Source: Syntrophaceae bacterium
GTDB lineage: Bacteria; Desulfobacterota; Syntrophia; Syntrophales; PHBD01
Direction: 5' to 3'
NCBI GenBank assembly: GCA_013177825.1
Contig: JABLXX010000004.1
Location: 227,990-291,989, forward strand
DNA: 64,000 bases
The translations under genes were made by a program, and so were the position numbers. This document shows positions 6,990 through 47,409 of the stretch, piece after piece (position 1 is the stretch's first letter; each line of letters begins with the position of its first letter). The notes beneath the pieces were generated by a model. It worked only from the letters and a program-made list of their open reading frames with translations. It did no database searches and was not told the DNA's origin.

Positions 6990-7218
6990 TATGCCGGGTG
7001 CGAGTCCTCCGGGAGGAGCCTCTGTTGTTCCTCCAGGTCGCGACAGCGCTTTGCTTTTCGGCGGGTTTACAGGTATAAGCGCGGGACCGGATGCGGCTTC
7101 CCTTGAGTCGCGAACTATAGCGGCGCCGCCGGTTCGTGTCAAATGCAAGATCCCCTCGCAGAAGCAGGGATCGATCCTGCACGGGCGGCATCATCCGGCA
7201 TTTCAGAGGAGGAACCCG

Positions 7219-8709: not shown

Positions 8710-8742
8710 GGACTTCTTTGCCGACTGCTCGGGAACGTCCTG

Positions 8743-9183
8743 TTACGGCCTTGCCAGGAATGCCCGCTTGATCCGGCCGTCGAACCCGGCGGATTCGTAG
8801 AACGTTCCGATCTCCTCGTTTTTTCTTCCCGTGCACAGCATGACTTTGTAACAGCGGCTCTCCCGGGCCAGCGCCAGCGCATTCTTCAGAACGGCCGTTC
8901 CGTAGCCCCTGCGGCGATGTGCTGCATCCGTGACCACGTTTTCGATGACGCCGTACGGCCGGCAGCCCCGGCTGAGATTCGGAATGATGCTCAGGGTGCA
9001 GGAGGAGACAAGCCTGCCGCCCACGAAGACGCCCAGGTACCGGAAGGACCGGCTGTCCCGGATCTGCCTCCAGACGGCCTCCACCTCCCGCCTTTCCGGC
9101 AACGGATCATCGGACGCGTGCATGTGCGCATAGAGGGCGAGCAGGTCGTCCAGTTCCCCTTCAAGAAGCTCTCTCGTTTCCAT
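8743..9183 (-). CDS. GNAT-family N-acetyltransferase
   Basis: 146 residues from the ATG at 9183, which has GGGAGG six bases upstream; a TTG at 9198 is a poorer choice. The acetyl-CoA loop is visible as VVTDAAHRRRGYGTAVL, preceded by the substrate-side strand GVIENV, and the C-terminal FYESAGF motif is typical. The fold transfers acetyl from acetyl-CoA to a small-molecule amine or peptide; the acceptor cannot be told. It is convergent with the ATPase-GNAT fusion gene, 33 bp away, and begins the long minus-strand run up to 16734. Confidence 0.9.
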   Translation of the reverse strand: METRELLEGELDDLLALYAHMHASDDPLPERREVEAVWRQIRDSRSFRYLGVFVGGRLVSSCTLSIIPNLSRGCRPYGVIENVVTDAAHRRRGYGTAVLKNALALARESRCYKVMLCTGRKNEEIGTFYESAGFDGRIKRAFLARP

Positions 9184-9263
9184 TCGATCCTCCCGCAACC
9201 CGCCGGCCGCCGTCGGTGTGACCCCGCCGCTCTTCCCGCGGGCGGCCGCTCCGGCTGCCCCAA

Positions 9264-10133
9264 TTACCCCCGGCCTTTTCGAGCGACAATTGCCAGGTTG
9301 GCGGATTGGCTTTCCTCTTCGACCTCGACGCCCACCAGCGATGGATAAAACCGGACTTCTTCGAATCCCGCCCGGGTGAGCACATCCCGGAACTGCTCGT
9401 CCGTATAGGCTTCAGTGGTCATCGCGTGGCGGGACACCGCTCCCGTTTCGGCGTCCACGACGAAAAAGCGCTGCGTTGTCGCCAGCTCGTCGGCGTCCCA
9501 GAAGCTTTCGGTCAGGCAGAGATGCGGGCGGTCCGAGAAGAGGCCGCCGCCGTCGCCGCAGGTATGCCAGGAGCTTCCCGACTGACCCTGTTTCATGACC
9601 GTGTCGAACTTCTGCGGTTCAAGCAGCAAGAGGCCATCCGGGGTAAGGGCCGAGAGGGCCTTTTCGAGGACCCGGCGCGCGTCGCTTCTCCGGAAGACGT
9701 TGAACTGGCCGAAGATCATAATGACCAGTCCGTACCCTTCGCCGTAATCCGCTGTCCGCACGTCCTCCAGCCGGTAGCGGCAATTCAGGCCTTCGTGCGC
9801 AGCATTGGCCTGTGCGTAACGGACCGGCTCGGGAGCGTAGTCGATGCCGACGCACGCATGCCCCAGCCTGGCCAGGCGGCTCGTGTACAGCCCGGGCCCG
9901 CAGGCCAACTCCAGGATTCGCGTCGGCCTGCCGCCCAGTATCGCTCCGTGGATCCAGCCGACCTGCCGGTCGATGATGTCGAAACGGCGGCTGGCCAGGT
10001 TGTGCTCCTGGGAGAGATGCTCCGCCAGCATTCGCCGGCTGAAGTTGGGGTCGTTCCAGGGGATGTTCTCCCCCTCGGCCCAGGAAACGGGGGGTATCCT
10101 GCGTCCGATGATGTCCTGCAGGTTCATGGTCAT
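9264..10133 (-). CDS. Class I SAM-dependent methyltransferase
   Basis: 289 residues. Motif I ILELACGPGLYTSRLA (73-88) binds S-adenosylmethionine, and acidic motif II follows in CVGIDYAPE. The post-I strands read EDVRTADYGEGYGLVIM and ALSALTPDGLLLLEP. The N-terminal 60 residues are rich in Trp and His. The C-terminal half contains a LCLTESFWD segment and an FEEVRFYPSLVG strand, as in small-molecule methyltransferases. The substrate is not deducible. An ATG two codons downstream is an alternative start. It lies 73 bp downstream of an alpha/beta hydrolase gene on the same strand. Confidence 0.9.
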   Translation of the reverse strand: MTMNLQDIIGRRIPPVSWAEGENIPWNDPNFSRRMLAEHLSQEHNLASRRFDIIDRQVGWIHGAILGGRPTRILELACGPGLYTSRLARLGHACVGIDYAPEPVRYAQANAAHEGLNCRYRLEDVRTADYGEGYGLVIMIFGQFNVFRRSDARRVLEKALSALTPDGLLLLEPQKFDTVMKQGQSGSSWHTCGDGGGLFSDRPHLCLTESFWDADELATTQRFFVVDAETGAVSRHAMTTEAYTDEQFRDVLTRAGFEEVRFYPSLVGVEVEEESQSANLAIVARKGRG

Positions 10134-12810: not shown

Positions 12811-13440
12811 TTATCGCAGCCGTTTCACCATCCGGAAGTGGCTTCTTACGCCCCGCTCCTCAAGGGGAAGAACGCGGCTCTCGGAGAGGATCTCCATCCC
12901 CAGCCGCCGGTAAAACCGGACCGCCGGGTTGTCGCCGGCCACGTCGAGATGGCAGGCGTCATAACCCCTTTCGCGGGCGCGGTCGAACGCGCCGGTCAGC
13001 AGCCTCTTCCCCAGGCCTTTTCCCTGCTCCCCGGGATCCGCCGCCAGGAAAAGCACGTAGTAGGCATGATTCGGGATCGGCGGCGTGAGATACCGGATGT
13101 ATCCGACGATTTCCAGGTAATGCCGAAATTCCCCGGGTGTCAGGATCTCCGGGGTCCGCTTCACCATGTTGGGGATCATCCGGTCCTGCCTGTCCCGGTC
13201 GTACCCGACTTCCAGGCCGGCGATCCTGCCGCCGGCGACGGCGACCGTGGCGTTGGAGTGACTGTACAGGCTCTCCTCCCCTTTCCACATGGCGGTGAAG
13301 AAGCGGAGGAAGCGGTCGAAATCGTTTTCGAAGAGGCAGTCCCAGAGGCGGGGATCCGTGCTGTAGATGAGCCGGGACGCGGCCTGGGCGTGCTCGGGGC
13401 CGGCCGGCAGGAACGCGGGGAGATGCGGATTCGTTTCCAT
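12811..13440 (-). CDS. GNAT-family N-acetyltransferase
   Basis: 209 residues. The acetyl-CoA binding segment LAADPGEQGKGLGKRLL and the C-terminal strand LDVAGDNPAVRFYRRLGMEI identify the fold. The N-terminal half has a helical insertion with many aromatic residues (DCLFENDFDRFLRFF), a layout shared with acetyltransferases annotated only generically. It starts 10 bp after the stop of the trans-sulfuration gene, so the two are likely co-transcribed and might share a sulfur-amino-acid substrate; that link is inference only. Confidence 0.9.
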   Translation of the reverse strand: METNPHLPAFLPAGPEHAQAASRLIYSTDPRLWDCLFENDFDRFLRFFTAMWKGEESLYSHSNATVAVAGGRIAGLEVGYDRDRQDRMIPNMVKRTPEILTPGEFRHYLEIVGYIRYLTPPIPNHAYYVLFLAADPGEQGKGLGKRLLTGAFDRARERGYDACHLDVAGDNPAVRFYRRLGMEILSESRVLPLEERGVRSHFRMVKRLR

Positions 13441-13450
13441 GGCCGGTTTT

Positions 13451-14584
13451 TTACACTTCTTTCATCGCCTGGTCCATGTCCGCGATCAGGTCGTCCGCAT
13501 CTTCGATCCCGACGGAGAGCCGCAAGAGCGAGTCGGAGATGCCGATCCTCCGGCGCTCCTCCGGGGAGATCTTCGCGTGGGAGGTCCCGGCGGGGGCGCA
13601 GATCAGCGTCTCCACGCCGCCCAGGCTGACGGCCGGGCGGATGATCCGGAGGCGGCGCAGGAAGGAGGCGGCGGAGACGATCCGCTCGTCCGGTTCGAAG
13701 GACAGCATGGCCCCGAATCCCGTCATCTGGGACCGGGCGATTTCATGCCCCGGCGAGTCCGGCAGGCCGGGATAGTTCACGCGGAAAACGGATGCATGTG
13801 CGGACAGATAGGCGGCGATGCGGGCGGCGTTCGCCGTCTGGCGTTCGACCCGGAGGGCCAGCGTCTTCATGCTCCGTTCGAGGAGGTAGCACATCATGGC
13901 GTTCAGGCTGCCGCCCAGGTGGCGGGCTGTGGCGCGGATTTTCGAGGCATGGGGTCGCGAGGTCAGGGCGGCGCCGCAGCTCAGGTCGCTGTGGCCGCCC
14001 AGGTACTTGGTTCCGCTGTGGACGACCACGTCGATGTCGAGCTGCAGAGGGCATTGGTTCACCGGCGTGGCGAAGGTATTGTCGAGGATCGTGACGATGC
14101 CCCGTTCCCGGCCGATCTGTGCCACCCGCCGGATGTCAATGATCCCCAGCAGGGGGTTCGTGGGCGATTCAATCACGATGACCTTCGTCTCCGGCGTCAC
14201 CGCATCCGCGACCGCCGCGGCGTCCGTGGCCGCGAAGGTGTGGCGGATCCCCAGCCGGTCGAACATGTCCGTGGCGAAGGCATGGGTTCCGCCGTACAGC
14301 TCGTCCATCATGACGACATGGTCCCCCGCTCCGGCGAAGGCGAGGATCGCCGTGCTGACGGCGGCCATGCCGGAGCTGAACAGGACGCCGTCTTCCGCGC
14401 CTTCCAGTGCGCAGAGCTTGCGGACCACGGCGTCCTGGTTCGGCGTGTTGAAGTAGCGGGGATAGGGGATGTCGTCCCGGTCCAGGTATTCGAACGAGGA
14501 GGACGTGAAAATCGGCGTGTTGACGCCCCGCGTCGCGGCGTCGCGGTACGTGCCGCCGTGAACGCAGATGGTTTCCTTCTTCAT
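13451..14584 (-). CDS. Trans-sulfuration PLP enzyme (cystathionine gamma-synthase / lyase family)
   Basis: 377 residues from the ATG at 14584, which has AAGGAG upstream; the family is typically 380-400 residues. The PLP-lysine is K193 in SGTKYLGGHSD. The FSSGMAAVSTAI loop, MDELYGGT, ESPTNPLLGIID and the terminal LLRLSVGIEDADDLIADM are all characteristic. Members act on homocysteine, cystathionine, O-acyl-homoserine or methionine. The sequence alone does not separate synthase from beta/gamma-lyase, and no met or cys gene is adjacent. A GNAT gene follows after 10 bp. Confidence 0.93.
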   Translation of the reverse strand: MKKETICVHGGTYRDAATRGVNTPIFTSSSFEYLDRDDIPYPRYFNTPNQDAVVRKLCALEGAEDGVLFSSGMAAVSTAILAFAGAGDHVVMMDELYGGTHAFATDMFDRLGIRHTFAATDAAAVADAVTPETKVIVIESPTNPLLGIIDIRRVAQIGRERGIVTILDNTFATPVNQCPLQLDIDVVVHSGTKYLGGHSDLSCGAALTSRPHASKIRATARHLGGSLNAMMCYLLERSMKTLALRVERQTANAARIAAYLSAHASVFRVNYPGLPDSPGHEIARSQMTGFGAMLSFEPDERIVSAASFLRRLRIIRPAVSLGGVETLICAPAGTSHAKISPEERRRIGISDSLLRLSVGIEDADDLIADMDQAMKEV

Positions 14585-21738: not shown

Positions 21739-22371
21739 ATGGAGGAAGCGACCCACAGCGACAAGTCGGGAGACACGGTGGAAAGGATCCTGCGCGCCGC
21801 CGCCGAGGTCTTCGCTGAATCAGGATTCCCAGGGGCCCGGGTCGACGAGATCGCCCGGCGCGCCGGCGTCAACAAGGCTATGCTGTACTATCATGTAGGC
21901 GACAAGAAAAACCTTTACGAGGAAGTTGTTCGAAGCATCATCGGCAAGACGGCGGAGCGGCTCGAAGAGGAAATCGGACAGGCGGATACCCCGGAGCGTA
22001 AAATGAGGATTTACATGCGTCGCTTCGCCGCCACCCTGGACGAAAACCCCGTCATTCCGCCCATCATGATGCGAGAGCTGGCCTCCGGCGGGCAGACGCT
22101 GCCCCAGGCGGCGGTGGAGGGGGTGGCCCGGGTGGTGTCGCTCGTCTCGACCATTCTGGACGAAGGGGTCAAAAAGGGCGTCTTCAGGTCCGTCAACCCC
22201 TTTCTCATCCATATGCTTGTGGCGGGGGCCTTTATCGTCTTCAAGGTGACGACGCCGGTCCGGGAGAGGGCGGAGTTCATTCCCGATGAGGTCCGCAGGA
22301 TGCCCCGGGAACTTGCAGGTTCCGTTCTCGAGGATGTCGAAGAGATGGTTCTCAGGGCGATCAGGAAATAA
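21739..22371 (+). CDS. TetR-family transcriptional regulator (CecR-like context)
   Basis: 210 residues; ATG preceded by ATGGAGGTGAATC. The N-terminal helix-turn-helix runs from ERILRAAAEVFAESGFPGARV to GVNKAMLYYHVGDKKNLYEEV, with the usual recognition-helix Tyr-Tyr-His. The C-terminal domain is helical and ligand-binding, with the specificity not visible. It is first in a chain of closely spaced exporter genes and follows a 44-bp dyad, so it most likely represses the operon and is relieved by a pump substrate. In E. coli, CecR (YbiH) heads the homologous ybhGFSR operon. The TolC-type gene starts 12 bp after its stop. Confidence 0.93.
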   Translation: MEEATHSDKSGDTVERILRAAAEVFAESGFPGARVDEIARRAGVNKAMLYYHVGDKKNLYEEVVRSIIGKTAERLEEEIGQADTPERKMRIYMRRFAATLDENPVIPPIMMRELASGGQTLPQAAVEGVARVVSLVSTILDEGVKKGVFRSVNPFLIHMLVAGAFIVFKVTTPVRERAEFIPDEVRRMPRELAGSVLEDVEEMVLRAIRK

Positions 22372-22383
22372 GGAGGGCGCACA

Positions 22384-23697
22384 ATGAAAGAAAAGTCAAT
22401 CCATGCATCCATGATCCTGGCCGGGCTGCTCCTGCTCCTGGGAAGCACGTCCTGCCTCGCGGGGGAGAAGATGACGCTTCAGGAAAGCATCGACATCGCC
22501 CTGAAGCAAAGCCTGCTCGTCCATTCGGCCCGGGAGGGCGTCGCGGGCGCCCGGGCCCAGGAGCGGGAGGCCTTAACGGGATTCCTGCCGAAGTTCTCGA
22601 CGTCTTACGGCTACACCCGCCTCAACGAGGACCCCGGCATGACCGTTCCCAGCCTTGGCTCGTTCACGACGGGGACCCGGGACAACTACACCTGGGCCAC
22701 GGAGGTCCGGCAGCCCCTCTTCGCCGGCGGCGGGATCGTGGCCAACTGGCGCGCCGGCAAGCTGGGCGCGGAGATCGCCCGGACGGACGAGCAGGCCGCC
22801 GTCAACGACCTCGTCCTGGACGTCAAGACGGCCTACTTCAACGTTCTGAAGGTGCAGCGTCTCGTGGAGGCGGCCCGGCAGGCGGTGGAACTGCTCCAGG
22901 CCCACCGGAACATGGCGAAGGACTTTTTCGACGTCGGGATGGTGCCCAAGAACGATGTCCTCCGGGCGGAGGTGGAGCTGGCCAACGGGAAGTACAACCT
23001 GACGAAGGCGGAGAACGTCCTCGAGATGGCGAAGGCGAACTTCAACACCATCCTGCGCCGGGACGTCAATGAACGGGTCGATCTGGAAGATATCCCGGAT
23101 CTCCGGCCCTTCGACGGCTCCCTGGCGGACGTTCGGAAGCAGGCCTTGGAAAGCCGTCCCGAAATCAAGTCCTACGCCATGAAGACCGAGCAGGCCGACC
23201 GGTACGTGGACGCCGCGCGGAGCGAGTTCTTCCCCACCATCAGCGCCGTCGGCCACTACGAGCGTTTCGGCGACACCCCTGGCGTTTCCGGCAGTCCCTA
23301 TCAGGACGCCGAGAGCTGGTACGTGGGGGGCATGCTGAACTGGAACTTCTGGGAATGGGGCCGCACGAAGTACCGGGTGGACTCCGTGAAGAGCCGCCGG
23401 AACCAGGTGCAGGACGCCCTGGAGGGCATGAAGGACCGGGTTACCCTGGAGGTCAAGAACGCCTGGCTCCAGCTCGATGAGGCCCGGAAGCAGGTGGGGG
23501 TGACGAAGAAGGCCATCGAGCAGGCGGAGGAGAATTTTCGCATGAGCCAGGAACGCTATCGCGAGCAGGTCGGGACGGCCACGGAGGTCCTGGACGCCCA
23601 GACGCTCCTGACCCGGTCCCGGTCTGATCACGCCGGCGCCCTGGCGGATTATCACATCGGTCTGGCCCGGCTGGAGCGGGCCATGGGGCGCCGATAG
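22384..23697 (+). CDS. TolC-family outer-membrane efflux channel
   Basis: 437 residues with an N-terminal signal peptide ending around residue 27. The mature protein has the TolC layout of two repeats of beta-strands and long coiled-coil helices. Repeat 1 contains MTLQESIDIALKQSLLV and ANLNWR-like helices; repeat 2 contains SRPEIKSYAMKTEQADRYVDAARSEFFPTIS split by the usual loops, and the protein ends LADYHIGLARLERAMG. It forms the trimeric exit duct for the exporter encoded downstream. A Cys near the signal cut (STSC) is a poor lipobox match, so I do not call it a lipoprotein. HlyD-type adaptor follows after 15 bp. Confidence 0.93.
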   Translation: MKEKSIHASMILAGLLLLLGSTSCLAGEKMTLQESIDIALKQSLLVHSAREGVAGARAQEREALTGFLPKFSTSYGYTRLNEDPGMTVPSLGSFTTGTRDNYTWATEVRQPLFAGGGIVANWRAGKLGAEIARTDEQAAVNDLVLDVKTAYFNVLKVQRLVEAARQAVELLQAHRNMAKDFFDVGMVPKNDVLRAEVELANGKYNLTKAENVLEMAKANFNTILRRDVNERVDLEDIPDLRPFDGSLADVRKQALESRPEIKSYAMKTEQADRYVDAARSEFFPTISAVGHYERFGDTPGVSGSPYQDAESWYVGGMLNWNFWEWGRTKYRVDSVKSRRNQVQDALEGMKDRVTLEVKNAWLQLDEARKQVGVTKKAIEQAEENFRMSQERYREQVGTATEVLDAQTLLTRSRSDHAGALADYHIGLARLERAMGRR

Positions 23698-23712
23698 GCG
23701 GGGAGCTGCATC

Positions 23713-24726
23713 ATGAAAAAGAAACGGATTGTCATCGCGGTTTTCCTGGTCCTCCTGGCGGGTGTGGGCGCCCTCGTCTACTGGGGCCAGTGGAGGAACC
23801 AGCGGCAGGAGCTGTACTATTCGGGAACCATCGAGGCCACGAACGCCAACCTGGCCTTCCAGGCCCCGGGACGGGTCGTCCTGGTTGCCGTCAGGGAGGG
23901 AGAGGCCGTGGCGAAGGACCAGTTCCTGGCGGAGCTGGAACCGTCGGAACTGAAGGCCCGGCAAGAGCAGGCGAAGGCAAACCTGGAGCGGGCCCGGCAC
24001 GTCCAGGCACAGGCCGGGACGGTTCACGGCATCTACCGGGAGACCCTGCCTGCCGACGTGCTCAGGGCCGAGGCGAACCTCAAGGCCGTTCGGAGCGCTG
24101 CGGAGGACAGCCGGAAGAATGCCGCCCGATACGAGCAGCTCTTTTCCCGGGGGGTGGTGACGGAGAAGGAGCGGGACGCAGTCCGGCTCAAGGCCGATAC
24201 CGACCGAGATCGGCTGGCCGAGGCCGAGGCGGTCCTCGTCCAGGCAAAATCGAACCTGAAAAAGATCGATGCGGCCCAGCAAGACCTGGCGGGCGCCCGT
24301 TCCGCCGCGGAGGCGGCCCTGGCCTCCCTGGACCAGGCAACGATCCAGTCGGGCTATGCGAAACTGTCGGCTCCCTTTGCGGGCATCGTCACCAGCCGGA
24401 ACGTCGAGCCGGGTGAGGTCGTCACGGCGGGTCGGGAGGTCCTGACCGTCACCGATCTCTCCACGGTGGACCTGAAGATCTTCGTCGACGAGACGGAGAT
24501 CGGCAAGGTCAAGCCCGGACAGAAGGTGGAGGTGAAGGTGGACACCTTCCCGAAGAAAACCTTCGAGGGCCGGGTGACCTTCATTTCTCCCGAGGGCGAG
24601 TTCACGCCCAAGATCATCCAGACGAAGAAGGAGAGGGTGAAGCTCGTCTACCTGGTGAAAGTGAATGTGCCCAACCCGAACCTGGAGCTGAAGTCGGGCA
24701 TGCCGGCGGACGCCTGGCTGAAGTGA
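23713..24726 (+). CDS. HlyD/YbhG-family periplasmic adaptor
   Basis: 337 residues. One N-terminal membrane anchor (residues 5-24) is followed by a split lipoyl domain (NLAFQAPGRVVLVAVREGEAV and LSAPFAGIVTSRNVEPGEVV) around a long alpha-helical hairpin of about 130 residues, then a beta-barrel domain (VDLKIFVDETEIGKVKPGQ). It bridges the inner-membrane ABC transporter and the TolC channel. The order TetR-TolC-HlyD-ATPase-ATPase-permease-permease matches the YbhG exporter class. Its TGA overlaps the region where the next gene starts, indicating translational coupling. Confidence 0.94.
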   Translation: MKKKRIVIAVFLVLLAGVGALVYWGQWRNQRQELYYSGTIEATNANLAFQAPGRVVLVAVREGEAVAKDQFLAELEPSELKARQEQAKANLERARHVQAQAGTVHGIYRETLPADVLRAEANLKAVRSAAEDSRKNAARYEQLFSRGVVTEKERDAVRLKADTDRDRLAEAEAVLVQAKSNLKKIDAAQQDLAGARSAAEAALASLDQATIQSGYAKLSAPFAGIVTSRNVEPGEVVTAGREVLTVTDLSTVDLKIFVDETEIGKVKPGQKVEVKVDTFPKKTFEGRVTFISPEGEFTPKIIQTKKERVKLVYLVKVNVPNPNLELKSGMPADAWLK

Positions 24727-24734
24727 GGTATGCC

Positions 24735-25487
24735 GTGGCGCCCTTTGTTTCCGTGGAGAATGTGTCCATGCGGTTCGGTGTCGTCGAGGCCGTCCGGGAG
24801 GTGTCCCTCGCGGTGGAGGAGGGGACCCTCTTCGGCCTGGTCGGCTCCGACGGGGCGGGGAAATCGACCCTGCTGCGCATGGCGGCCACCATGATCGCAC
24901 CCCTGGCCGGGCGGATCACCATCGATGGCCTCGACGTTGTTAAGGACCGGAAGAAGGTGAAGCCCCTCATCGGCTACATGCCCCAGCGCTTCGGCCTCTA
25001 CGCGGACCTGACGGTGGACGAGAACCTGCGCTTCTTCATGGATGTCTTCAACATTCCCCGGGCGGAGCGGATCCGCCGTCGGGAGAAATACCTCGGGTTC
25101 TCCAACCTCCTTCCCTTTGTCGACCGCCCGGCGGGAAACCTCTCCGGCGGGATGAAGCAGAAGCTGGGACTGGCCTGCGTGCTGGTCCACGAGCCACGGG
25201 TCCTCATCCTGGACGAGCCGACCAACGGCGTCGATCCCGTCTCGCGGCAGGAATTCTGGGACATCCTGAAGCAGATGCGGCAGGAGGGCATGACGATCCT
25301 GGTCTCGACGGCCTACCTGGACGAGGGGGAGAAGTGCGACCGGCTGGCCCTGATGCACAAGGCGAGCCTGATCGAGACGGCTACCCCGGCGGACGTCCGG
25401 GCGGACTTCCCCTCCCTGGAGGAGGCCATGATCGCCCGGATCCGGGACGTGGACGAGGAACTGGCAAATGAAGCCTTCCAGCGGTGA
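24735..25487 (+). CDS. ABC exporter ATPase 1 (YbhF N-half-like), H-loop His replaced
   Basis: 250 residues from GTG 24735, which has GTGAGG six bases upstream; GTG 24723, overlapping the previous stop, is an alternative. Walker A is GSDGAGKST, the signature LSGGMKQK is canonical and Walker B reads VLILDEPTNGVD with the catalytic Glu. The H-loop, normally STHYMDEAE, reads STAYLDEGE, so the switch His is Ala. This fits an asymmetric heterodimer with ATPase 2, whose signature is degenerate instead. In E. coli YbhF the two ATPases are one fused protein; here they are separate genes overlapping by 20 bp. Confidence 0.93.
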   Translation: MAPFVSVENVSMRFGVVEAVREVSLAVEEGTLFGLVGSDGAGKSTLLRMAATMIAPLAGRITIDGLDVVKDRKKVKPLIGYMPQRFGLYADLTVDENLRFFMDVFNIPRAERIRRREKYLGFSNLLPFVDRPAGNLSGGMKQKLGLACVLVHEPRVLILDEPTNGVDPVSRQEFWDILKQMRQEGMTILVSTAYLDEGEKCDRLALMHKASLIETATPADVRADFPSLEEAMIARIRDVDEELANEAFQR

Positions 25488-26223
25488 TGCCATCGCCGTT
25501 CAGGAACTGGAGAAGCGGTTCGGCGACTTCGTTGCGGTGAACCGGATCACCTTTTCGGTGAAGCGGGGCGAGATCTTCGGCTTTCTCGGCTCCAACGGCT
25601 CGGGCAAGTCCACGACGATCCGCATGCTCTGCGGCATCCTGAGCCCCACCTCCGGCCGGGGCGAGGTGGCGGGGATCGACATCTTCCGGGAGCCCGAGCG
25701 GGTCAAGGGCGTGATCGGCTACATGTCCCAGAAGTTTTCCCTCTACGAAGACCTGACGCCCGCGGAGAACCTCCGCTTCTACCTGGGGATCTACGCCGTT
25801 CCGCCGGATCTCTGGGGGGAGCGGACCCGCTGGGTCCTCTCCATGGCGCGGCTGGAGGCGGTGAAGGACCGCCCCACGGGGGACCTGCCGCAGGGCTGGA
25901 AGCAGCGGCTGGCCCTGGGGTGCGCCCTCCTGCACCGGCCGGAGATCCTGTTTCTCGACGAGCCGACATCCGGGGTCGATCCGGTGACGCGCCGCCACTT
26001 CTGGGACTTCATCCGGCAGCTGGCGGACGAAGGCATCACGGTGTTCGTCACGACCCACTACATGGACGAGGCGAGGAACTGCGAGCGCCTGGTCCTCATC
26101 GACCAGGGCGCCATCGTGGCCCAGGGAAGTCCCGGGGAGATCGTCGACATGGCCTGCCCGGACCGGGAAGATGCGGACCTCAACGACGCCTTCATCAGCC
26201 TGATGGCCCGGAAGCCCTGCTGA
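25468..26223 (+). CDS. ABC exporter ATPase 2 (YbhF C-half-like), degenerate signature motif
   Basis: 251 residues, starting inside the end of ATPase 1. Walker A GSNGSGKST is at 41-49, Walker B is ILFLDEPTSGVD and the H-loop TTHYMDEAR keeps its His. The signature motif is LPQGWKQR, not LSGGxxQR. Since each ATP site combines the Walker motifs of one subunit with the signature of the other, the His-less ATPase 1 faces this altered signature, leaving one impaired and one normal site. It should power the two ABC-2 permeases encoded downstream. A protease-inhibitor-like gene intervenes before the permeases. Confidence 0.93.
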   Translation: MKPSSGDAIAVQELEKRFGDFVAVNRITFSVKRGEIFGFLGSNGSGKSTTIRMLCGILSPTSGRGEVAGIDIFREPERVKGVIGYMSQKFSLYEDLTPAENLRFYLGIYAVPPDLWGERTRWVLSMARLEAVKDRPTGDLPQGWKQRLALGCALLHRPEILFLDEPTSGVDPVTRRHFWDFIRQLADEGITVFVTTHYMDEARNCERLVLIDQGAIVAQGSPGEIVDMACPDREDADLNDAFISLMARKPC

Positions 26224-26256
26224 GAAGAGCGGGAAAAAAGAAAGGAGGATCGAGAC

Positions 26257-26685
26257 ATGAAGAAGGGATGGATGCTGTTTCTGGTTTTTATCATAACGAT
26301 GGTCTTGGCTCCGGCGATTCAGGCCGCGCCGGGAGACGGCCGGGCGGGGGCGGGCCGGGTCGGGGGAGTCGGGCCGGTCTTCACCGATCCGAATCAGCCG
26401 GTTGAAGTGGCGGCGGGGGAAACCTTCCGCATCGTCCTCGACTCCAACCGAACGACGGGCTACGGGTGGCAGCTCGCGGAAACGCCCGACGAAGCGGTGG
26501 TGAAGAAGGTCCACAACCGCTATCGGGTACCGAGGGTGAAGCGTCCGGGCGCCGGCGGGCAGGAAGTCTGGCGGTTTCAGGCCGTGAAGCCGGGGACGGC
26601 GGAGATCCGGATGGTTTACGTCCGCTCCTGGGAAAAGAGCGTCGAACCCGCCCGGACGGCTGTTTTCAAGGTCAACGTGAAATGA
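26257..26685 (+). CDS. Chagasin-like (I42 family) protease inhibitor, exported
   Basis: 142 residues; ATG preceded by AAGGAGGATCGAGAC. A signal peptide covers residues 1-24 (cut near IQAAPG). The three inhibitor loops of the chagasin fold are recognisable: NRTTGYGW (64-71; family NPTTGYxW), GAGGQEVWRF (98-107; GxGGxxxWxF) and RSWE (123-126; RPWE). Chagasins inhibit papain-type (C1) cysteine peptidases. A Gly/Arg-rich stretch (residues 27-40) precedes the domain. The gene lies between the ATPase and permease genes of one exporter, all in one direction, so it is co-expressed with the pump. No C1 peptidase is in the window, so the target may be foreign. Confidence 0.88.
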   Translation: MKKGWMLFLVFIITMVLAPAIQAAPGDGRAGAGRVGGVGPVFTDPNQPVEVAAGETFRIVLDSNRTTGYGWQLAETPDEAVVKKVHNRYRVPRVKRPGAGGQEVWRFQAVKPGTAEIRMVYVRSWEKSVEPARTAVFKVNVK

Positions 26686-26822
26686 AGCTGCTGAGCGTTG
26701 CGCCGCGAGGTTGCGCGGACCCGTCGCCCGCCGGTTTTCCGGTGAAAGCTGCCATGAAACGGCAGGGGGAAACGCGCAGTCGTCGCCCTGTTTCAACGTT
26801 CGGAAAAGCAGACGCCTGAGGA

Positions 26823-27962
26823 ATGATCATGAACCCCGTCCGCGTCCAGGCCATCATCCGCAAGGAGTTCTATCACCTGATCCGGGACTACCGGAGCCTC
26901 ATCCTGGCCTTCGCGATTCCGCTTCTCTTGATCCTCCTGTTCGGCTACGCGCTGAGCCTTGACGTGGACAACGTCGAGACGGTGGTCGTGGACCAGGACC
27001 GCACCGACCTGAGCCGGGACTTCATTCGCCGCCTCGATGCGTCACCCTATTTTCACGTGAAGGCCCACCTGGCGGACACACGCATTGTCGCCGACTGGCT
27101 CGACCGGGACCGGGCGACCGTGGCGGTCGTCATTCCCCCCGACTGGACGGAGAACCTCCGGAGCGACCGGGAGGCGCCGCTGCAGATCCTCCTGGACGGC
27201 AGCGACCCGAACTTCGCCAACATCGCCCGGGGTTACGTCAACGCCTTCGTCGAGCAGTACAACGGGAAGCTCCTGGCGGATTTCCTCACCCGCCGGGGGA
27301 TCGAGCCGATCCGGGCTCCCGTGGAGGGGCGCATCCGGGTCTGGTTCAACGAGGACCTGGAGAGCCGGAACTTCATCGTCCCCGGAATCATCGCCCTCAT
27401 CATCATGATCGTCGGGGCCATCCTGACCTCCCTGGTCATCGCCCGGGAGTACGAGAGCGGGACCATGGAGACCCTGAAGTCCCTCCCCGTCACGGGGATG
27501 GAGCTCCTGGTCGGCAAGGCGGTTCCCTACTTCTTCATCGGCCTGATCGATGTCCTGATCGCCGTCTTCATGGGACAGGTCCTCTTCGGCATCGTCATGA
27601 AGGCGAGTTTCTGGGTCATGATCCTGGCCTCGTCTCTCTACCTGTCGGTGGCCCTGGCCCTGGGGCTTCTCATCTCCACGGTCACCAAGAACCAGCTTGT
27701 GGCCAACCAGGGGGCGATCCTCCTCACCTATCTGCCGTCGCTGTTGCTGTCGAACTTCGTCTTCCCCATCGCCAACATGCCGAAGGCCCTCCAACTCCTC
27801 ACGTATATCGTACCGGCGAACTACTACATCGAGATTCTGAGCGGCATCTACCTGAAAAACCTCGGGTTCATCCAGATGTGGACGAACTTCGCGGTCCTGG
27901 GCGTCATGTTCCTGGTCCTGGCGGGGATGACCGGGGCGCTGCTGAAGAAGGAGGGCCTGTAG
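26823..27962 (+). CDS. ABC-2 type permease 1 (YbhS-like)
   Basis: 379 residues (an ATG two codons downstream is an alternative start). The layout is that of YbhS/YbhR: one N-terminal membrane span (about 24-45), a large periplasmic domain of about 150 residues, then five spans. The conserved loop EYESGTMETLKSLPVTGMEL and the late FPIANMPKALQLLTYIVPANYY segment are family hallmarks. It should form the membrane channel as a heterodimer with the next gene product. It follows the I42 inhibitor after 137 bp, the largest gap inside this operon, in which I see no terminator. Confidence 0.95.
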   Translation: MIMNPVRVQAIIRKEFYHLIRDYRSLILAFAIPLLLILLFGYALSLDVDNVETVVVDQDRTDLSRDFIRRLDASPYFHVKAHLADTRIVADWLDRDRATVAVVIPPDWTENLRSDREAPLQILLDGSDPNFANIARGYVNAFVEQYNGKLLADFLTRRGIEPIRAPVEGRIRVWFNEDLESRNFIVPGIIALIIMIVGAILTSLVIAREYESGTMETLKSLPVTGMELLVGKAVPYFFIGLIDVLIAVFMGQVLFGIVMKASFWVMILASSLYLSVALALGLLISTVTKNQLVANQGAILLTYLPSLLLSNFVFPIANMPKALQLLTYIVPANYYIEILSGIYLKNLGFIQMWTNFAVLGVMFLVLAGMTGALLKKEGL

Positions 27963-27963
27963 G

Positions 27964-29085
27964 ATGAACCGGCTGCGTATCCGCGAACTCGTCCGCAAGG
28001 AGTTCCTCAGCCTCTTCCGGGACCCGAAGAACCGGCGCATCCTCGTCATTGCGCCCATCATCCAGATCCTCGTCTTCGGCTACGTGGTGAACTACGACAT
28101 CCGCCACATCCGCGTCGCCTGGCTGGACCAGGCGCAGACCCGGGAGAGCCGCCTGCTGGCGGAGAACTTCCAGGGGAACGGGATCTTCGACATCACCCAC
28201 CCCGTTCGCGATACCCGGGCGCTGGAAGATCTTCTCCTCAAGGGGAAGGTGGACCTGGCGGTCAAGGTGGCCCCCGACATGAGCCGGCAAATCCGCCGGG
28301 GCGAGACGTCGGAGGTCCAGATCCTAGCCGACGGCACCATGAGCAACATGGCATCCGTCCGGATCGCCTACACCATGACCGTCCTGGACCGGTACAACCG
28401 GACCCTGATCCGGGAACTCAACCCGATGCATATGGACTACGCCCGGGTCGACGCGCGGATCCGCACCTGGTACAACGCGAACCTGGACAGCCCCCACTTC
28501 TTCGTTCCGGGGATCGTCGCCTTCATCGTGATGCTGATCTCGCTGCTCCTCACCTCCATCGCCATCATCAAGGAGAAGGAGGCCGGGACGATGGAGCAGC
28601 TCATCGTCACGCCGCTCAAGCCGGTGGAGCTGATCATCGGCAAGACGATCCCCTACATCGTCATCTCTTTCGCCCAGATGATCGTGGTGACGATCCTGGC
28701 GGTCTTCTGGTTCGAGATCCCCCTGGAGGGGTCGATCGGCCTCCTGGCCATTGCCACCTGCCTCTTTCTTCTCTCCACCCTCGGCATGGGCCTCTTCATC
28801 TCCACGGTGTCCTCGACGCAGCAGCAGGCCATGATGGCAACCTTCTTCGTCATCCTGCCCTTCTTCCTGCTCTCGGGGTTCGTCTTCCCCATCGCCAACA
28901 TGCCCGAGCCGGTCCAGTGGCTGACCTTCCTGAACCCGCTCCGCTACTTCCTCGTCATCATCCGGGGAATCTTCCTGAAGGGCGTGGGCCTGGATGTCCT
29001 CTGGCCCCAGTATGTCGCCCTCATCATCCTGGGAACCGCCGTCTTCGCCGGGGCGACGGTGCGGTTCCGGAAGCGGCTGGATTAG
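27964..29085 (+). CDS. ABC-2 type permease 2 (YbhR-like)
   Basis: 373 residues, starting one base after the stop of permease 1. It has the same plan: membrane span near residues 20-40, periplasmic domain, and five C-terminal spans. Family motifs are KEKEAGTMEQLIVTPLKPVEL, seen in two parts around the coupling helix, and FPIANMPEPVQWLTFLNPLRYF. Homologues move amphipathic compounds or cations out of the cell; E. coli YbhFSR has been linked to antibiotic and cation efflux. With permease 1, the two ATPases, the adaptor and the TolC-type channel it completes a trans-envelope exporter. The GNAT gene follows after 3 bp. Confidence 0.95.
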   Translation: MNRLRIRELVRKEFLSLFRDPKNRRILVIAPIIQILVFGYVVNYDIRHIRVAWLDQAQTRESRLLAENFQGNGIFDITHPVRDTRALEDLLLKGKVDLAVKVAPDMSRQIRRGETSEVQILADGTMSNMASVRIAYTMTVLDRYNRTLIRELNPMHMDYARVDARIRTWYNANLDSPHFFVPGIVAFIVMLISLLLTSIAIIKEKEAGTMEQLIVTPLKPVELIIGKTIPYIVISFAQMIVVTILAVFWFEIPLEGSIGLLAIATCLFLLSTLGMGLFISTVSSTQQQAMMATFFVILPFFLLSGFVFPIANMPEPVQWLTFLNPLRYFLVIIRGIFLKGVGLDVLWPQYVALIILGTAVFAGATVRFRKRLD

Positions 29086-43738: not shown

Positions 43739-45337
43739 TCAACGCCCGGCCTGGATCGCCCCGGCGGCGTCGCAGGCCTCCTTCAGACCCAGCGAGCAGG
43801 CCTTCCGGAAATCCGCGAGGGCCTGGCTTTTCCTTCCCTTCTTTTTGTAGGCGGTTCCCCGGTTCTTGTAGGCATTGGCGTACCCGGGGGTGAGGGCGAT
43901 GGCGCGGTTGTAGTCGTCGATGGCCTGGTCGAGCCGGCCCTGAACGAACCGGGCGTATCCCCGGTTGTTGAAGGCGAGGTCGTACCTGGGGTTGAGGGCG
44001 ATGGCGCGGGTGTAGTCATCGATGGCCCGCTCAACCCGGTTCATCCGCCGGTACACGATGCCCCGGGTGTTGTAGGCATCGGCCAACTTGGGGTCCAGGG
44101 AGATCGCGCGGTTCAGGTCTTTCAGCGCTTCGTTCAGACGGTTCTTCTTGAGCCAGGCGTCTCCCCGGTTGTAGTACGTACCGGCGTCGGACGGCTCCAG
44201 GGCGATGGCCCGGTCGAGGTCCGCAATGGCCTGGTCGAGCCGCCCCGCCATCAGGTGGGCATTCCCGCGGTGATGGAACGCCAGTGACGAGGCCGGGTTC
44301 AGCTCCAGAGACCGGTTGTAGTCCTTGATGGCCCGGTCGTATTCGCGCTTGTCGAACCAGGCGCTGCCCCGGTTGTGGTAGGAACTGGACCCGTCCGGAT
44401 TCAGTGCGATGGACCGATCGAAATCATCGATGGCCCGGTCCAATTTGCCCATCCGCCGGTATACGGTGCCCCGGCCGTCGTAAGCGCTGGCGCCGTCCGG
44501 CTTCAGGGCGATGGCCCGGTTCAGATCCTTCAATGCCTGGTCGTACTTTCCCATTTCCCGGTAGGCAAGCCCGCGGTTGCGGTGGATATAGGCCGCACCC
44601 GGCTCCAGAGCGAGGGCCCGAGTGTAGTCGGCGACGGCCCTGTTAAAGAGCTCTTGCCGCTGGTAGGCGTTTCCCCGGTTCGCGTAGGCGTCCGCGTAGC
44701 CCGGATCCAGTTCGATTGCCGACGTGTAGGCCGCAACGGCCGGCCCGAATTCATTCCGCAGGTAGAACTGGAGGCCCTTCTCCAGCCAGGCGGAGGCCTG
44801 GAGGCGCTTTTCGTCCTGCGTGATTTTCTCCTGCAGGGGTATGGCCTCTTTCTTCCCCTTCGAGCGGGCCAGCTCCGCCTTCAGCCGGTCGATCTCCCGG
44901 CGGCTGTCTTCGTATGATTTCCGGAGGTTGCCGTAATCCTCGGCGGCGTCCCGTTCCCGGACCCGGGCGGCCATTTTTTTGACCTCGTCCGTCTGGATCC
45001 GGGCACGGATGCGGACCCACACAATGAGGCCATCCCCCGCCATGGTCCTCTTCTTTTCCAGGACCGTCACGTCCATGATCCCCGAGGCGAGAACCTGGAC
45101 CTCGTCGCGGGTGAGCTGGAGATTCTCCACCTTCGAGTAGCTCTCCACATAGGTTCCCGCTTCCTCAAGGGCGGCCCGCTTCGCCTTCTGCAGCGCCCGC
45201 TCTTCCGCGGCCAGGGGCGTCTCGCCGTCCCCCATGATGTAGGATCCCTCGGCGGTGATCTCCCGGACATCCGCGACGGCCGATCCGGGAAGAATCAGAA
45301 GAAGCATGATCAGAATGTGGATCAGAAAGGTTTTCAT
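43739..45337 (-). CDS. Secreted TPR protein with ten tandem repeats
   Basis: 532 residues. Signal peptide at 1-22 (FLIHILIMLLLILPGSAVA). Residues 23-125 form a domain resembling the FlgT/LPP20 N-terminal type (VREITAEGSYIMGDGET, AALEEAGTYVESYS). A charged coiled-coil follows (125-182). Ten nearly regular 34-residue TPRs occupy 183-522, each with the pattern Y..RG..Y...G....A..D..RAI.L.P. The TPR array should be a protein-binding scaffold in the periplasm. The repeats differ enough that recent DNA-level expansion is not obvious. It is divergent from the unknown gene at 45576. Confidence 0.92.
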   Translation of the reverse strand: MKTFLIHILIMLLLILPGSAVADVREITAEGSYIMGDGETPLAAEERALQKAKRAALEEAGTYVESYSKVENLQLTRDEVQVLASGIMDVTVLEKKRTMAGDGLIVWVRIRARIQTDEVKKMAARVRERDAAEDYGNLRKSYEDSRREIDRLKAELARSKGKKEAIPLQEKITQDEKRLQASAWLEKGLQFYLRNEFGPAVAAYTSAIELDPGYADAYANRGNAYQRQELFNRAVADYTRALALEPGAAYIHRNRGLAYREMGKYDQALKDLNRAIALKPDGASAYDGRGTVYRRMGKLDRAIDDFDRSIALNPDGSSSYHNRGSAWFDKREYDRAIKDYNRSLELNPASSLAFHHRGNAHLMAGRLDQAIADLDRAIALEPSDAGTYYNRGDAWLKKNRLNEALKDLNRAISLDPKLADAYNTRGIVYRRMNRVERAIDDYTRAIALNPRYDLAFNNRGYARFVQGRLDQAIDDYNRAIALTPGYANAYKNRGTAYKKKGRKSQALADFRKACSLGLKEACDAAGAIQAGR

Positions 45338-45575
45338 GACTGCCTCCCAAACTCACCATAAGGGGAAAACAATCTCCAGTGCAAGCCCCCATGCCGGTGA
45401 ATCGCTGAACGGCAGACTCCCGGAGGTGATAACCGGGTGGACTGCATCCCTTTTCCGCATGATGAACGTTGCCGTAACGGCGGACCCATGGTAGAAAAAC
45501 ACGTCTCGTACGAAAATCATTTCGTTCCGGATACCCGTTCCTTTCTGGAGGGGACCGGTCGGAGAGGAATCGAGC

Positions 45576-46577
45576 ATGCTGAAGGTCATCGAGGACGAGG
45601 CCACCATCCGGCGGTGTCAGCAGCAGTTCAGCCGAAGTTTCCGGGCTGTCGCGGACGCGCGGATTCCCGTCCGGGTTGGGCATCCGGGGGCTAGCTTCCG
45701 GGCCTCCGTATACTGGTCGGACGAACGGGATCTCTGGCTCTACTCCAAGCGGATCCCGGAGAAGAACCACTGGAACGTCCTGGGGATCGGCAAGCCGGCG
45801 CCGGAGGGGCGGGTAGCCATCACCTGCGAGATCAATTTCCCGATCCGGGGAATCGACCGGAAGATCGGCGGCGCCCTGGCGCGGGACCCGGAAGGGGTGA
45901 TCTATGTCGTCCACCGGGGCCGCCTCGGGGGAAGCCGGAAGGGAATCGGCAAATCCCTGTTCGGGAGCCGCTACCGCGGTGTCTGGGCTCTCATGGAGGA
46001 CGGTGAAGAACTGGCGACGGTGGCCGTTGTGGGCGCCCTTCATTCTCCCCGTTTCGTCCGCCAGCTCGGGCAGTTCGTCCGCAAGGTCCAGCGGATGAAA
46101 GACCTGGCCGCGTCTCAGGACCCCCAACTGGCCATCGCCTTCCCGGAAGTGAAGTTCCGCGAAGAACTCAGCGGCAAAGCGGCCCTGCCGGATCCCGTCG
46201 ATCTTTCCCGGTTTTGCGACCGCGGCCTGATCGCCGGCGACCTGGCCGCGGCTCTTCAGTCCATGGGACTCCAGTCGGGCAACGACGAAGGCCGGGACTG
46301 CTTTATCGTGGACAGCCAGGAGCGGATCACCGTCCTGTTCAAAATTCTGACGAGCCTCCGGGACGGCGAGGTTCACGAAGCGGCGGCAAGGCTCCTGGTG
46401 GACGGCGTTTCTCTCCCGGAAAAACCGTGGTTGGTCCTGGCTGCTCCGGCCGCCCTGCCTGCCGTTTTGGCGGAGCCCCTGAAGGCCCTCGGCGCGGAAA
46501 TCCTGCCCTATGACTGGTCCGGGGACCGAGCCGTGTTTCCACAGTTGAAGGCCTTTGTCCGGGAGATCGGGCGTTGA
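45576..46577 (+). CDS. Unrecognised conserved-looking protein with eroded nuclease-like C-terminus
   Basis: 333 residues; ATG preceded by GGAGAGGAATCGAGC. The N-terminal two thirds hold a highly patterned block: YWSDERDLWLYSKRI, HWNVLGIGKP, ITCEINFPIRGIDRKIGGAL and VVHRGRLGGSRKGIGKSLF. The last 120 residues (GLIAGDLAAALQSMGLQSGND, RDCFIVDSQERITVLFKILT, LPYDW) resemble from memory a PD-(D/E)xK-type fold in which the strand reads LFEVKT. Here it reads LFKILT, so the catalytic Glu and Lys are lost. No signal peptide or membrane span. I cannot assign a family or function. It stands alone between the divergent TPR gene and the phosphodiesterase gene. Confidence 0.82.
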   Translation: MLKVIEDEATIRRCQQQFSRSFRAVADARIPVRVGHPGASFRASVYWSDERDLWLYSKRIPEKNHWNVLGIGKPAPEGRVAITCEINFPIRGIDRKIGGALARDPEGVIYVVHRGRLGGSRKGIGKSLFGSRYRGVWALMEDGEELATVAVVGALHSPRFVRQLGQFVRKVQRMKDLAASQDPQLAIAFPEVKFREELSGKAALPDPVDLSRFCDRGLIAGDLAAALQSMGLQSGNDEGRDCFIVDSQERITVLFKILTSLRDGEVHEAAARLLVDGVSLPEKPWLVLAAPAALPAVLAEPLKALGAEILPYDWSGDRAVFPQLKAFVREIGR

Positions 46578-46695
46578 CTCCCGCCCGATTCTCCGGGCCG
46601 CCGGTTGCGGATTCCGGGTTTCATCCTGCTGCGCTCCGGCGGGGTAAGGCGGTCGTCCCGCAGGGCGGCGAGTGTGGATGCCGCGGGAGGATGCC

Positions 46696-47409
46696 GTGAC
46701 GTCCCTGGCCGAACTTCCCCGTGGCCGGCTTTTCCGCTTCGCCCACCGGGGTGCCTCGGCCCGGGCGCCGGAGAACACCCTGGCGGCCGTTGAGCAGGCC
46801 CTTGCCCTCGGGGCCGACGGCGTTGAGATCGACGTGTACGCCGTCGAGAGCGAACTGGTCGTGATCCACGATCCCCGGCTGGAGCGGACGACGAACGGGC
46901 AGGGCCGGGTCATGGCCTCCCCCCTCGCCTATCTGCGCTCCCTCGATGCCGGACAGGGACAGAGGATTCCCTTTCTCCACGAGGTCCTGGACCTGGTGGA
47001 CCGGCGGGCCGTGGTCAACGTGGAATTGAAAGGGCCCGGCACAGCCGGTCCGGCAGCGGCCGTTGTGCGGCGGTATGTGAGAGAACGCGGATGGCGTTAC
47101 GGGGATGTTCTCCTGTCATCCTTTCACCGCCGGGAACTGGCCGTTGCCGGGGAGGAGGCGCCCCGAATTCCCCGGGGCCTTCTGACGCGCTCCCCCATCC
47201 TCCCCACGAAGCGCTTTCAGGTGGAAAGGAATCTTTTTTCCATCCATATCCGCCTGGACCGGGTCAGCCGCCGCCTTACGGACGCGGCGCACCGGAGGGG
47301 CCTGAAGGTATTTGTCTATACCGTCAACCGGGAGGAGGACTTCCGGGCCATGGAAGCCATGGGAGTCGACGGCGTCTTCACCGACTTTCCAGTGTCGGTG
47401 AAGGGATGA
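46696..47409 (+). CDS. Glycerophosphodiester phosphodiesterase family protein
   Basis: 237 residues from GTG 46696, which has GGGAGG five bases upstream; GTG 46672 and ATG 46678 would add unlike residues. The GDPD TIM barrel is clear: FAHRGASARAPENTLAA with the catalytic His, GVEIDVYAVE with the metal-binding Glu and Asp, and VVIHDPRLERTTNGQG with the second His. The terminal VFVYTVNREEDFRAMEAMGVDGVFTDFP is typical. It hydrolyses deacylated phospholipids to glycerol-3-phosphate and an alcohol. No signal peptide, so cytoplasmic. The gene runs in the same direction as the flavodiiron gene but 130 bp away. Confidence 0.94.
   Translation: MTSLAELPRGRLFRFAHRGASARAPENTLAAVEQALALGADGVEIDVYAVESELVVIHDPRLERTTNGQGRVMASPLAYLRSLDAGQGQRIPFLHEVLDLVDRRAVVNVELKGPGTAGPAAAVVRRYVRERGWRYGDVLLSSFHRRELAVAGEEAPRIPRGLLTRSPILPTKRFQVERNLFSIHIRLDRVSRRLTDAAHRRGLKVFVYTVNREEDFRAMEAMGVDGVFTDFPVSVKG

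Follow-up and report, generated by a model that had tools for sequence, protein, structure and literature searches.

Some proteins with a PD-(D/E)xK fold, such as RPB5, ERCC1-type proteins and Sen15, are catalytically inactive; they have kept the architecture of a nuclease but do not cut. Active enzymes with a comparable domain layout are the Type IV and Type IIM restriction enzymes (MspJI, Mrr, and McrA-like proteins of the HNH type), in which a reader is joined to a nuclease. The catalytic site itself is not rigid in the superfamily. The lysine is described as shifting to motif IV, often as arginine, in other families (PMC1913061), and a glutamine is allowed in Mrr-type motif III (PMC3874153).

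The gene analysed here is found at positions 45576-46577 (+ strand, stop included) of a window of 64,000 nucleotides from a Syntrophaceae bacterium (contig JABLXX010000004.1); it starts with ATG and encodes 333 amino acids. The altered cutting site and the preserved basic N-terminal domain suggest that a defence-type nuclease has been turned to another use. With a probability of roughly 45%, the protein is a former restriction-type nuclease that no longer cuts but binds DNA, probably in the service of an exporter as a regulator or adaptor; we infer both the binding and the role. A description of the family was not found in the limited literature covered on inactive restriction-type nucleases, or on such genes in the order.

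The block HWNVLGIGKP...GGSRKGIGKSLF and the strand LFKILT, on which a reading of the sequence alone had been based, are both present in the product as given. An antisense open frame of 582 amino acids (45165-46913, - strand) overlaps the whole gene, and probably results from the GC-richness of the coding sequence. The frame on the + strand is settled by its conservation, as the N-terminal domain has a dN/dS of 0.077 in the comparison with the sister species. The sequence-only reading could name no family for the protein, and the searches agree: used as a single sequence, it gave no match at E<=10 in Pfam, NCBIfam, PADLOC and PDB sequences, and none at E<=1 in PHROGs. Against PDB sequences, one family profile (A3) gave a single chance match (E 2.2), the other (A4) none.

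Relatives are frequent in the window's order of anaerobic bacteria, judged from the named records to be the Syntrophales. A scan of one genome per species over 84,980 species returned 10 loci, titled Deltaproteobacteria, Syntrophaceae or Smithellaceae. In the phylum the gene was found in 12 of 297 genomes by protein search and in 19 of 395 by profile search. A broader profile identified relatives in 70 of the 119 Syntrophales genomes, distributed over 26 of 51 genera, and gave no match in the other 49; among order genomes with at least 90% completeness and at most 5% contamination, 47 of 79 carry a relative. Phage records yielded no relative with the window protein (P0001), the N-terminal domains of L021 and L060, or L150 as queries, nor did viral contigs with L020 or L044. 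A DNA-pattern search of viral contigs found one member, L150, on a prophage contig from IMG/VR; used as query, L150 retrieved no second viral contig.

Counts for the order refer to 70 full-length rows. Of these, 65 come from the matched order genomes, 64 of which yielded full-length rows, one of them (G460) two. The other five (L003, L005, L006, L007, L009) come from the species-wide scan, and were assigned to the order by their position within the f2 group of the tree. G130 and the partial sequences G398, G434, G437 and G477 stand outside the count and were read separately. G400, which runs into a contig end, and L008 with its second piece, which has a frame break, were excluded, as were, outside the order, G020 and G386 (N-terminal domain only) and G296 (HNH). 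Four duplicate rows were removed from the alignment. The main alignment includes seven full-length outside relatives (two from Bosea, two from Hymenobacter, G029, G055 and G370); separate checks covered L150, L164 and a fragment from Photobacterium, L165. In the gene tree of 77 rows, midpoint-rooted for drawing only, the GTDB families f1, f2, f5, f98, f117 and f121 are each recovered as a group, and f3 is split, since its long-branched rows G157 and G291 stand apart. The tree points to mostly vertical inheritance within the Syntrophales. Two diverged copies (L072 and L115), neither with the catalytic lysine, coexist in the G460 genome. In L008 (5965-6902) the C-terminal domain lies in a different frame, and the gene is either a broken copy or an assembly error.

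The C-terminal domain (residues 207-333; 46194..46574, + strand) is, according to its model, a PD-(D/E)xK fold. The full-length AF2 model, built from 16 family sequences, has pLDDT 88.6 and pTM 0.89. DSSP assigns to residues 210-332 a helix, three strands, a helix, a strand, a helix and a strand, the order typical of PD-(D/E)xK proteins. When residues 193-333 are aligned with VIA, high-ranking structures include Cdn1 (Z 11.7, rmsd 2.9 Å over 115 residues), VC1899 and Can2 (Z 10.4) and, from Pyrococcus, a repair endonuclease (Z 9.6). The receiver domains of response regulators reach Z 7-9 in this comparison, and Foldseek found no match for the full-length model in PDB and BFVD at E<=1e-3. The margin for the fold is thus modest, and the motifs seen in relatives are part of the basis for the assignment. 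The early suggestion that a PD-(D/E)xK-like fold is joined here to an unrecognised domain holds on this basis. Residues 207-325 are acidic (pI 4.6, net charge -6); the median pI of the domain is 5.5 in the order versus 8.9 in seven outside rows.

The relatives read FEVKT, YEVKT, YEIK or FEIK at the motif III strand, in line with the LFEVKT that the sequence-only reading had given for homologues. The signature D..ExK..Q is intact in 9/9 full-length outside relatives, i.e. the seven of the main alignment plus L150 and L164, so that a nuclease would be the older state, and the direction of change would be from intact to altered. In the window protein the strand lacks its catalytic residues, as had been noticed from LFKILT: K256-I257-L258 (46341..46349) replaces E-x-K, R272 (46389..46391) replaces the motif IV glutamine, and R216 (46221..46223), in the motif I region, takes the place of a histidine shared by the seven outside relatives in the main alignment, all on the + strand. 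Only the motif II acid D241 (46296..46298, + strand) is retained of the five site positions (His, D, E, K, Q). The sister species also has K-x-L, with lysine in place of arginine in motif IV. The nuclease site is lost in the window protein, and the protein, as others in the genus, is most likely dead as an enzyme.

Changes extend to the whole order. ExK is found in none of the 70 rows, nor does any of them combine another acid with the lysine, and the motif II acid is kept in 69. According to criteria set in this analysis, 19 rows have an acid (E or D) in motif III and a base (K or R) in motif IV, seven have the Mrr-type QxK, 10 have Q with a base elsewhere, and 34, window included, have no plausible set; the 19 and the seven may be active as nucleases. 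Members outside the count similarly lack ExK: G130 has E..ExV..K, G398 D..HxL..Q and G434 D..ExR..R. G477 stops ahead of the catalytic stretch. In G437 (L166, G437:C41:73900-75500, - strand) about 50 residues encompassing all four catalytic columns are missing in frame, while the N-terminal domain and the end of the C-terminal domain are retained; the gap may be caused by an assembly error. By parsimony the lysine state changed at least four times on the full tree and six times on the N-domain tree. The lysine column ranks 5th for variability among 119 C-domain columns, and E, Q and D rank 55th, 58th and 98th, respectively; given the ranks of E and Q, not all catalytic columns are unusually free to vary.

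The N-terminal domain (residues 1-180; 45576..46115, + strand) is basic (pI 10.4, net charge +13). Modelled alone (AF2, residues 1-205, 43 sequences), it has pLDDT 85.8 and pTM 0.80. The model found no match in PDB with Foldseek at E<=1e-3, and no VIA row reached Z 5, the best being Z 3.7. Type III secretion chaperones (CesT, SigE, ExsC and others) recur in the VIA rows at Z 2.3-3.7, and were discarded as too weak. No CARF protein is present among the best 50 VIA rows, and no known modified-base reader was detected above chance by Pfam in the N-terminal domains of five relatives; such missing Pfam or VIA matches exclude no reader type. The predicted fold is thus unrecognised and no solved relative was found, negatives which do not prove that the fold is new.

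The conserved block rich in Gly, Arg and Lys singled out from the sequence does include, with its HWNVLGIGKP stretch, many of the most conserved columns in 80 rows. Eight of them (G35, W54, G70, N87, H113, G115, G119, K175) show no variation, and another four (G123, G125, K126, F129) are conserved at 96% or more. Many of these residues form the loop H113-R-G-(x2)-G-G-(x3)-G-x-G-K126-(x2)-F129 (45912..45962, + strand), in which the named residues are found in 76-80 of the 80 rows. The loop is the least confident part of the domain within residues 1-180 (mean pLDDT 65 at residues 111-120 and 62 at 121-130). It is not universal in the family, because the Roseomonas relative L164, which is not among the 80 rows, lacks the GG..G.GK part. 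The linker that follows (residues 181-206; 46116..46193, + strand) falls below the loop in confidence, with pLDDT under 50 at residues 182-189 in the full-length model, and has conserved Q184, F189, E196 and G200 according to column entropies in the 70 order rows.

Basicity, the conserved flexible Gly/Arg/Lys loop and the company of nucleases suggest that the N-terminal domain binds nucleic acid, most likely DNA. Strong basicity marks the order more than the family: the median pI is 10.2 in 71 order rows (range 9.6-11.4, net charge +12) and 8.7 in nine outside rows (range 6.3-10.2, net charge -2 in one row), which makes it a weaker sign of DNA binding family-wide. The domain is the part best kept by strong purifying selection. 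Between window and sister species its dN/dS is 0.077 (11.5 nonsynonymous and 40.5 synonymous differences, 94% identity), versus 0.313 and 74% identity for the C-terminal domain. The latter has the higher dN/dS in 14 of the 16 pairs with both values, out of 17 pairs compared, not all independent because two genomes are each used twice. In L042/L043, two outside relatives whose sites are intact, the C-terminal domain is likewise the looser of the two, by a smaller margin (0.220 versus 0.288).

An exporter operon encoding TetR, TolC-like, HlyD, two ABC ATPase and two ABC-2 permease proteins, named by eye, is found in the window at 21739..29085 (+ strand). It is the orthologue of the operon directly preceding the gene in many relatives: its permease is 71% identical to that of a relative in an own-genome search, and Pfam recognises TetR, HlyD, two ATPases and two permeases in the L005 operon. 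In at least 37 of 72 order loci the gene is preceded by an ABC-2 permease at a distance of under 800 bp, a lower bound because long antisense ORFs conceal some permeases. Adjacency varies with the family (f2 13/13, f98 9/17, f3 2/10, f5 0/7, f1 0/2, f117 0/8); in f117 two extra genes intervene in 6/8 loci. A permease is found within 8 kb in 46 of the 72 loci, and all 84 permease ORFs lie on the strand of the gene. Operon and gene, on the same strand, are separated by 16.5 kb in the window and by 18.3 kb in the sister genome; the intervening genes in the window, judged by eye, are metabolic and transport genes. Ten genomes chosen among the 70 with the gene all have the permease, in eight of them on a different contig or across an unbridged gap, the exceptions being G329 (3.8 kb) and the sister genome. 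Operon and gene are not adjacent in the genus of the window, in 7/7 f5 loci and in 8/10 f3 loci, so their association could be accidental, carried along by descent.

Outside the order the company is different. Three relatives are found in clear restriction or defence settings. The Hymenobacter monticola locus encodes SIR2, Piwi and a DNA methyltransferase (annotation/Pfam). Prophage L150, likewise clear from annotation or Pfam, encodes the restriction enzyme XamI together with a methylase of Eco57I type, near portal and capsid genes. The L164 Roseomonas plasmid (1-14846) has matches to DrmA, DrmB, MzaA, Vsr, HNH, DUF262 and two cytosine methyltransferases; its family member has an intact site. 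For 91 proteins encoded next to 10 outside members, the best 25 of 155 PADLOC families matched (E<=1e-6) include pAgo, SIR2-type partners and Type II/IIG restriction-methylation proteins, in a pooled table that gives no locus of origin for its matches; G029, G055 and G370 are covered by pooled neighbour scans only. No clear restriction or Argonaute genes are annotated on either Bosea plasmid or on the second plasmid from Hymenobacter, which has a Fic/VbhA pair. In L150, which is lambda-type, the XamI and Eco57I-type genes (6736-9266, + strand) lie between terminase and portal, and the intact family member (13257-14276, - strand) is antisense, beside the cement protein. A Photobacterium plasmid (L165) hosts an unannotated fragment (5001-5240, + strand) with an intact-type FEVK..GQL domain, adjoining a Type II restriction enzyme and a cytosine methyltransferase.

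Relatives made of the N-terminal domain only also exist outside the order (L062, L063). In G296 (L064 2712-3404, - strand) the second half of the N-terminal domain is joined to an HNH nuclease of the PADLOC mREase_IV class. No frame with this domain is found upstream of the HRG motif, where the contig ends; as the first half is unseen, this is one weak case of domain exchange. The HNH query retrieved 8 phage and 96 plasmid records; among the matches listed, the alignment covers the linker and the HNH end, and four of the matched proteins carry different N-terminal domains. When the proteins of eight outside relatives were themselves compared with PADLOC, six had no match at E<=1, L061 matched only BrxB (E 0.045), and the match of L064 fell in the linker and HNH part.

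The proteins of the order, perhaps that of the window among them, could still cut a special substrate, if motif IV now supplies the catalytic base in place of motif III or if QxK is in use. Lysine migration and the Mrr-type glutamine have the precedents mentioned above (PMC1913061, PMC3874153), the motif II acid is kept almost throughout the order, and in the 77 rows lysine in motif III pairs with Q in motif IV in 14/16 cases. K and R are both absent from motif III in 52 rows, 33 of which have K or R in motif IV. The covariation is however not significant, with four supported independent pairs, too few events for the test. The window protein has lysine for the motif III acid and leucine for the lysine, nearly half of the order rows lack a plausible set, the lysine column is among the most variable, the catalytic stretch is lost in G437, and the C-terminal domain has turned acidic. 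Retained cutting is considered unlikely. A C-terminal domain merely decaying, with function residing in the N-terminal domain alone, would fit the higher dN/dS of the former, the broken frame of L008, the G437 gap and the existence of L062 and L063. Yet its dN/dS is below 1 in all 16 pairs, the window pair included; L223, L273 and F321 are invariant in the 70 order rows, in a region modelled with confidence; and the G437 deletion is in frame and spares the domain end. Simple decay is less probable still.

Just as improbable as decay is a defence role, which the sequence-only reading had proposed in the form of a sensor or adaptor: the dead fold and the N-terminal domain would detect the DNA of invaders and alert a separate effector. 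An inactivated nuclease can act as a binder, and the three outside relatives beside restriction, Argonaute, DISARM-like or Mza-like genes, with the pooled PADLOC scan in agreement, speak in favour. For the window protein a defence role is not supported. Inspection by eye of the window shows no defence gene in the vicinity of the gene, the recurrent neighbours at order loci are the ABC-2 exporter operon and metabolism or transport genes, and descent within the order is mostly vertical. MutS is found near the gene both in the window and in G055; orientation and spacing differ, and the coincidence was attributed to chance.

The favoured reading, a disarmed nuclease retained for DNA binding, may be outlined as follows. 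The ancestor would have been a nuclease of the restriction type, in which an N-terminal domain that recognises nucleic acid was coupled to a PD-(D/E)xK domain that cuts it. In the Syntrophales the gene would have become chromosomal and vertically inherited, and would have settled behind the ABC-2 exporter operon. The cutting site would have been remodelled in the order and disabled in the genus of the window. The basic N-terminal domain, with its flexible HRG..GG..G.GK loop, would keep binding nucleic acid, most likely DNA, and the dead fold would serve as a scaffold or dimerisation part. The product would bind DNA without cutting it, and probably serve the exporter as regulator or adaptor. 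A more specific proposal, doubtful as it stands, is that the N-terminal domain is an undescribed DNA reader of plasmid and prophage nucleases, captured by the ancestor of the order and stripped of cutting to yield the exporter-tied regulator.

If this proposal is true, a defence nuclease became a housekeeping protein by descent, through steps still visible among living relatives. The unannotated family includes intact mobile members, some near defence genes, and a catalytically altered, mostly vertical branch. The former are candidates for a new reader domain of restriction. The latter offers a graded natural series (ExK in the intact relatives, QxK, ExL with K or R in motif IV, KxL, deletion), in which one could study the loss or displacement of a nuclease's catalytic lysine, and the use for which the rest of the protein is retained.

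The order of helices and strands and the motif positions of the intact relatives are alike in this family and in the PD-(D/E)xK proteins Cdn1, VC1899, Can2 and the Pyrococcus repair endonuclease; unlike active members of the superfamily, the window protein lacks the motif III acid and lysine. For the CRISPR ancillary nucleases Can2/Card1 the VIA rows span residues 163-333 of the model, and no CARF-type sensor is recognised in the N-terminal domain. With Type IV and Type IIM enzymes the family shares the layout, the reader being here a predicted one; the HNH part of G296/L064 matches mREase_IV, and three intact relatives lie beside restriction or defence genes. The N-terminal domain differs in matching no known reader in the searches made here, and the window protein has no active site. 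As in RPB5, ERCC1-type proteins and Sen15, the fold is kept and the site is lost. Unlike these, the window protein has intact homologues, and the change spans one bacterial order.
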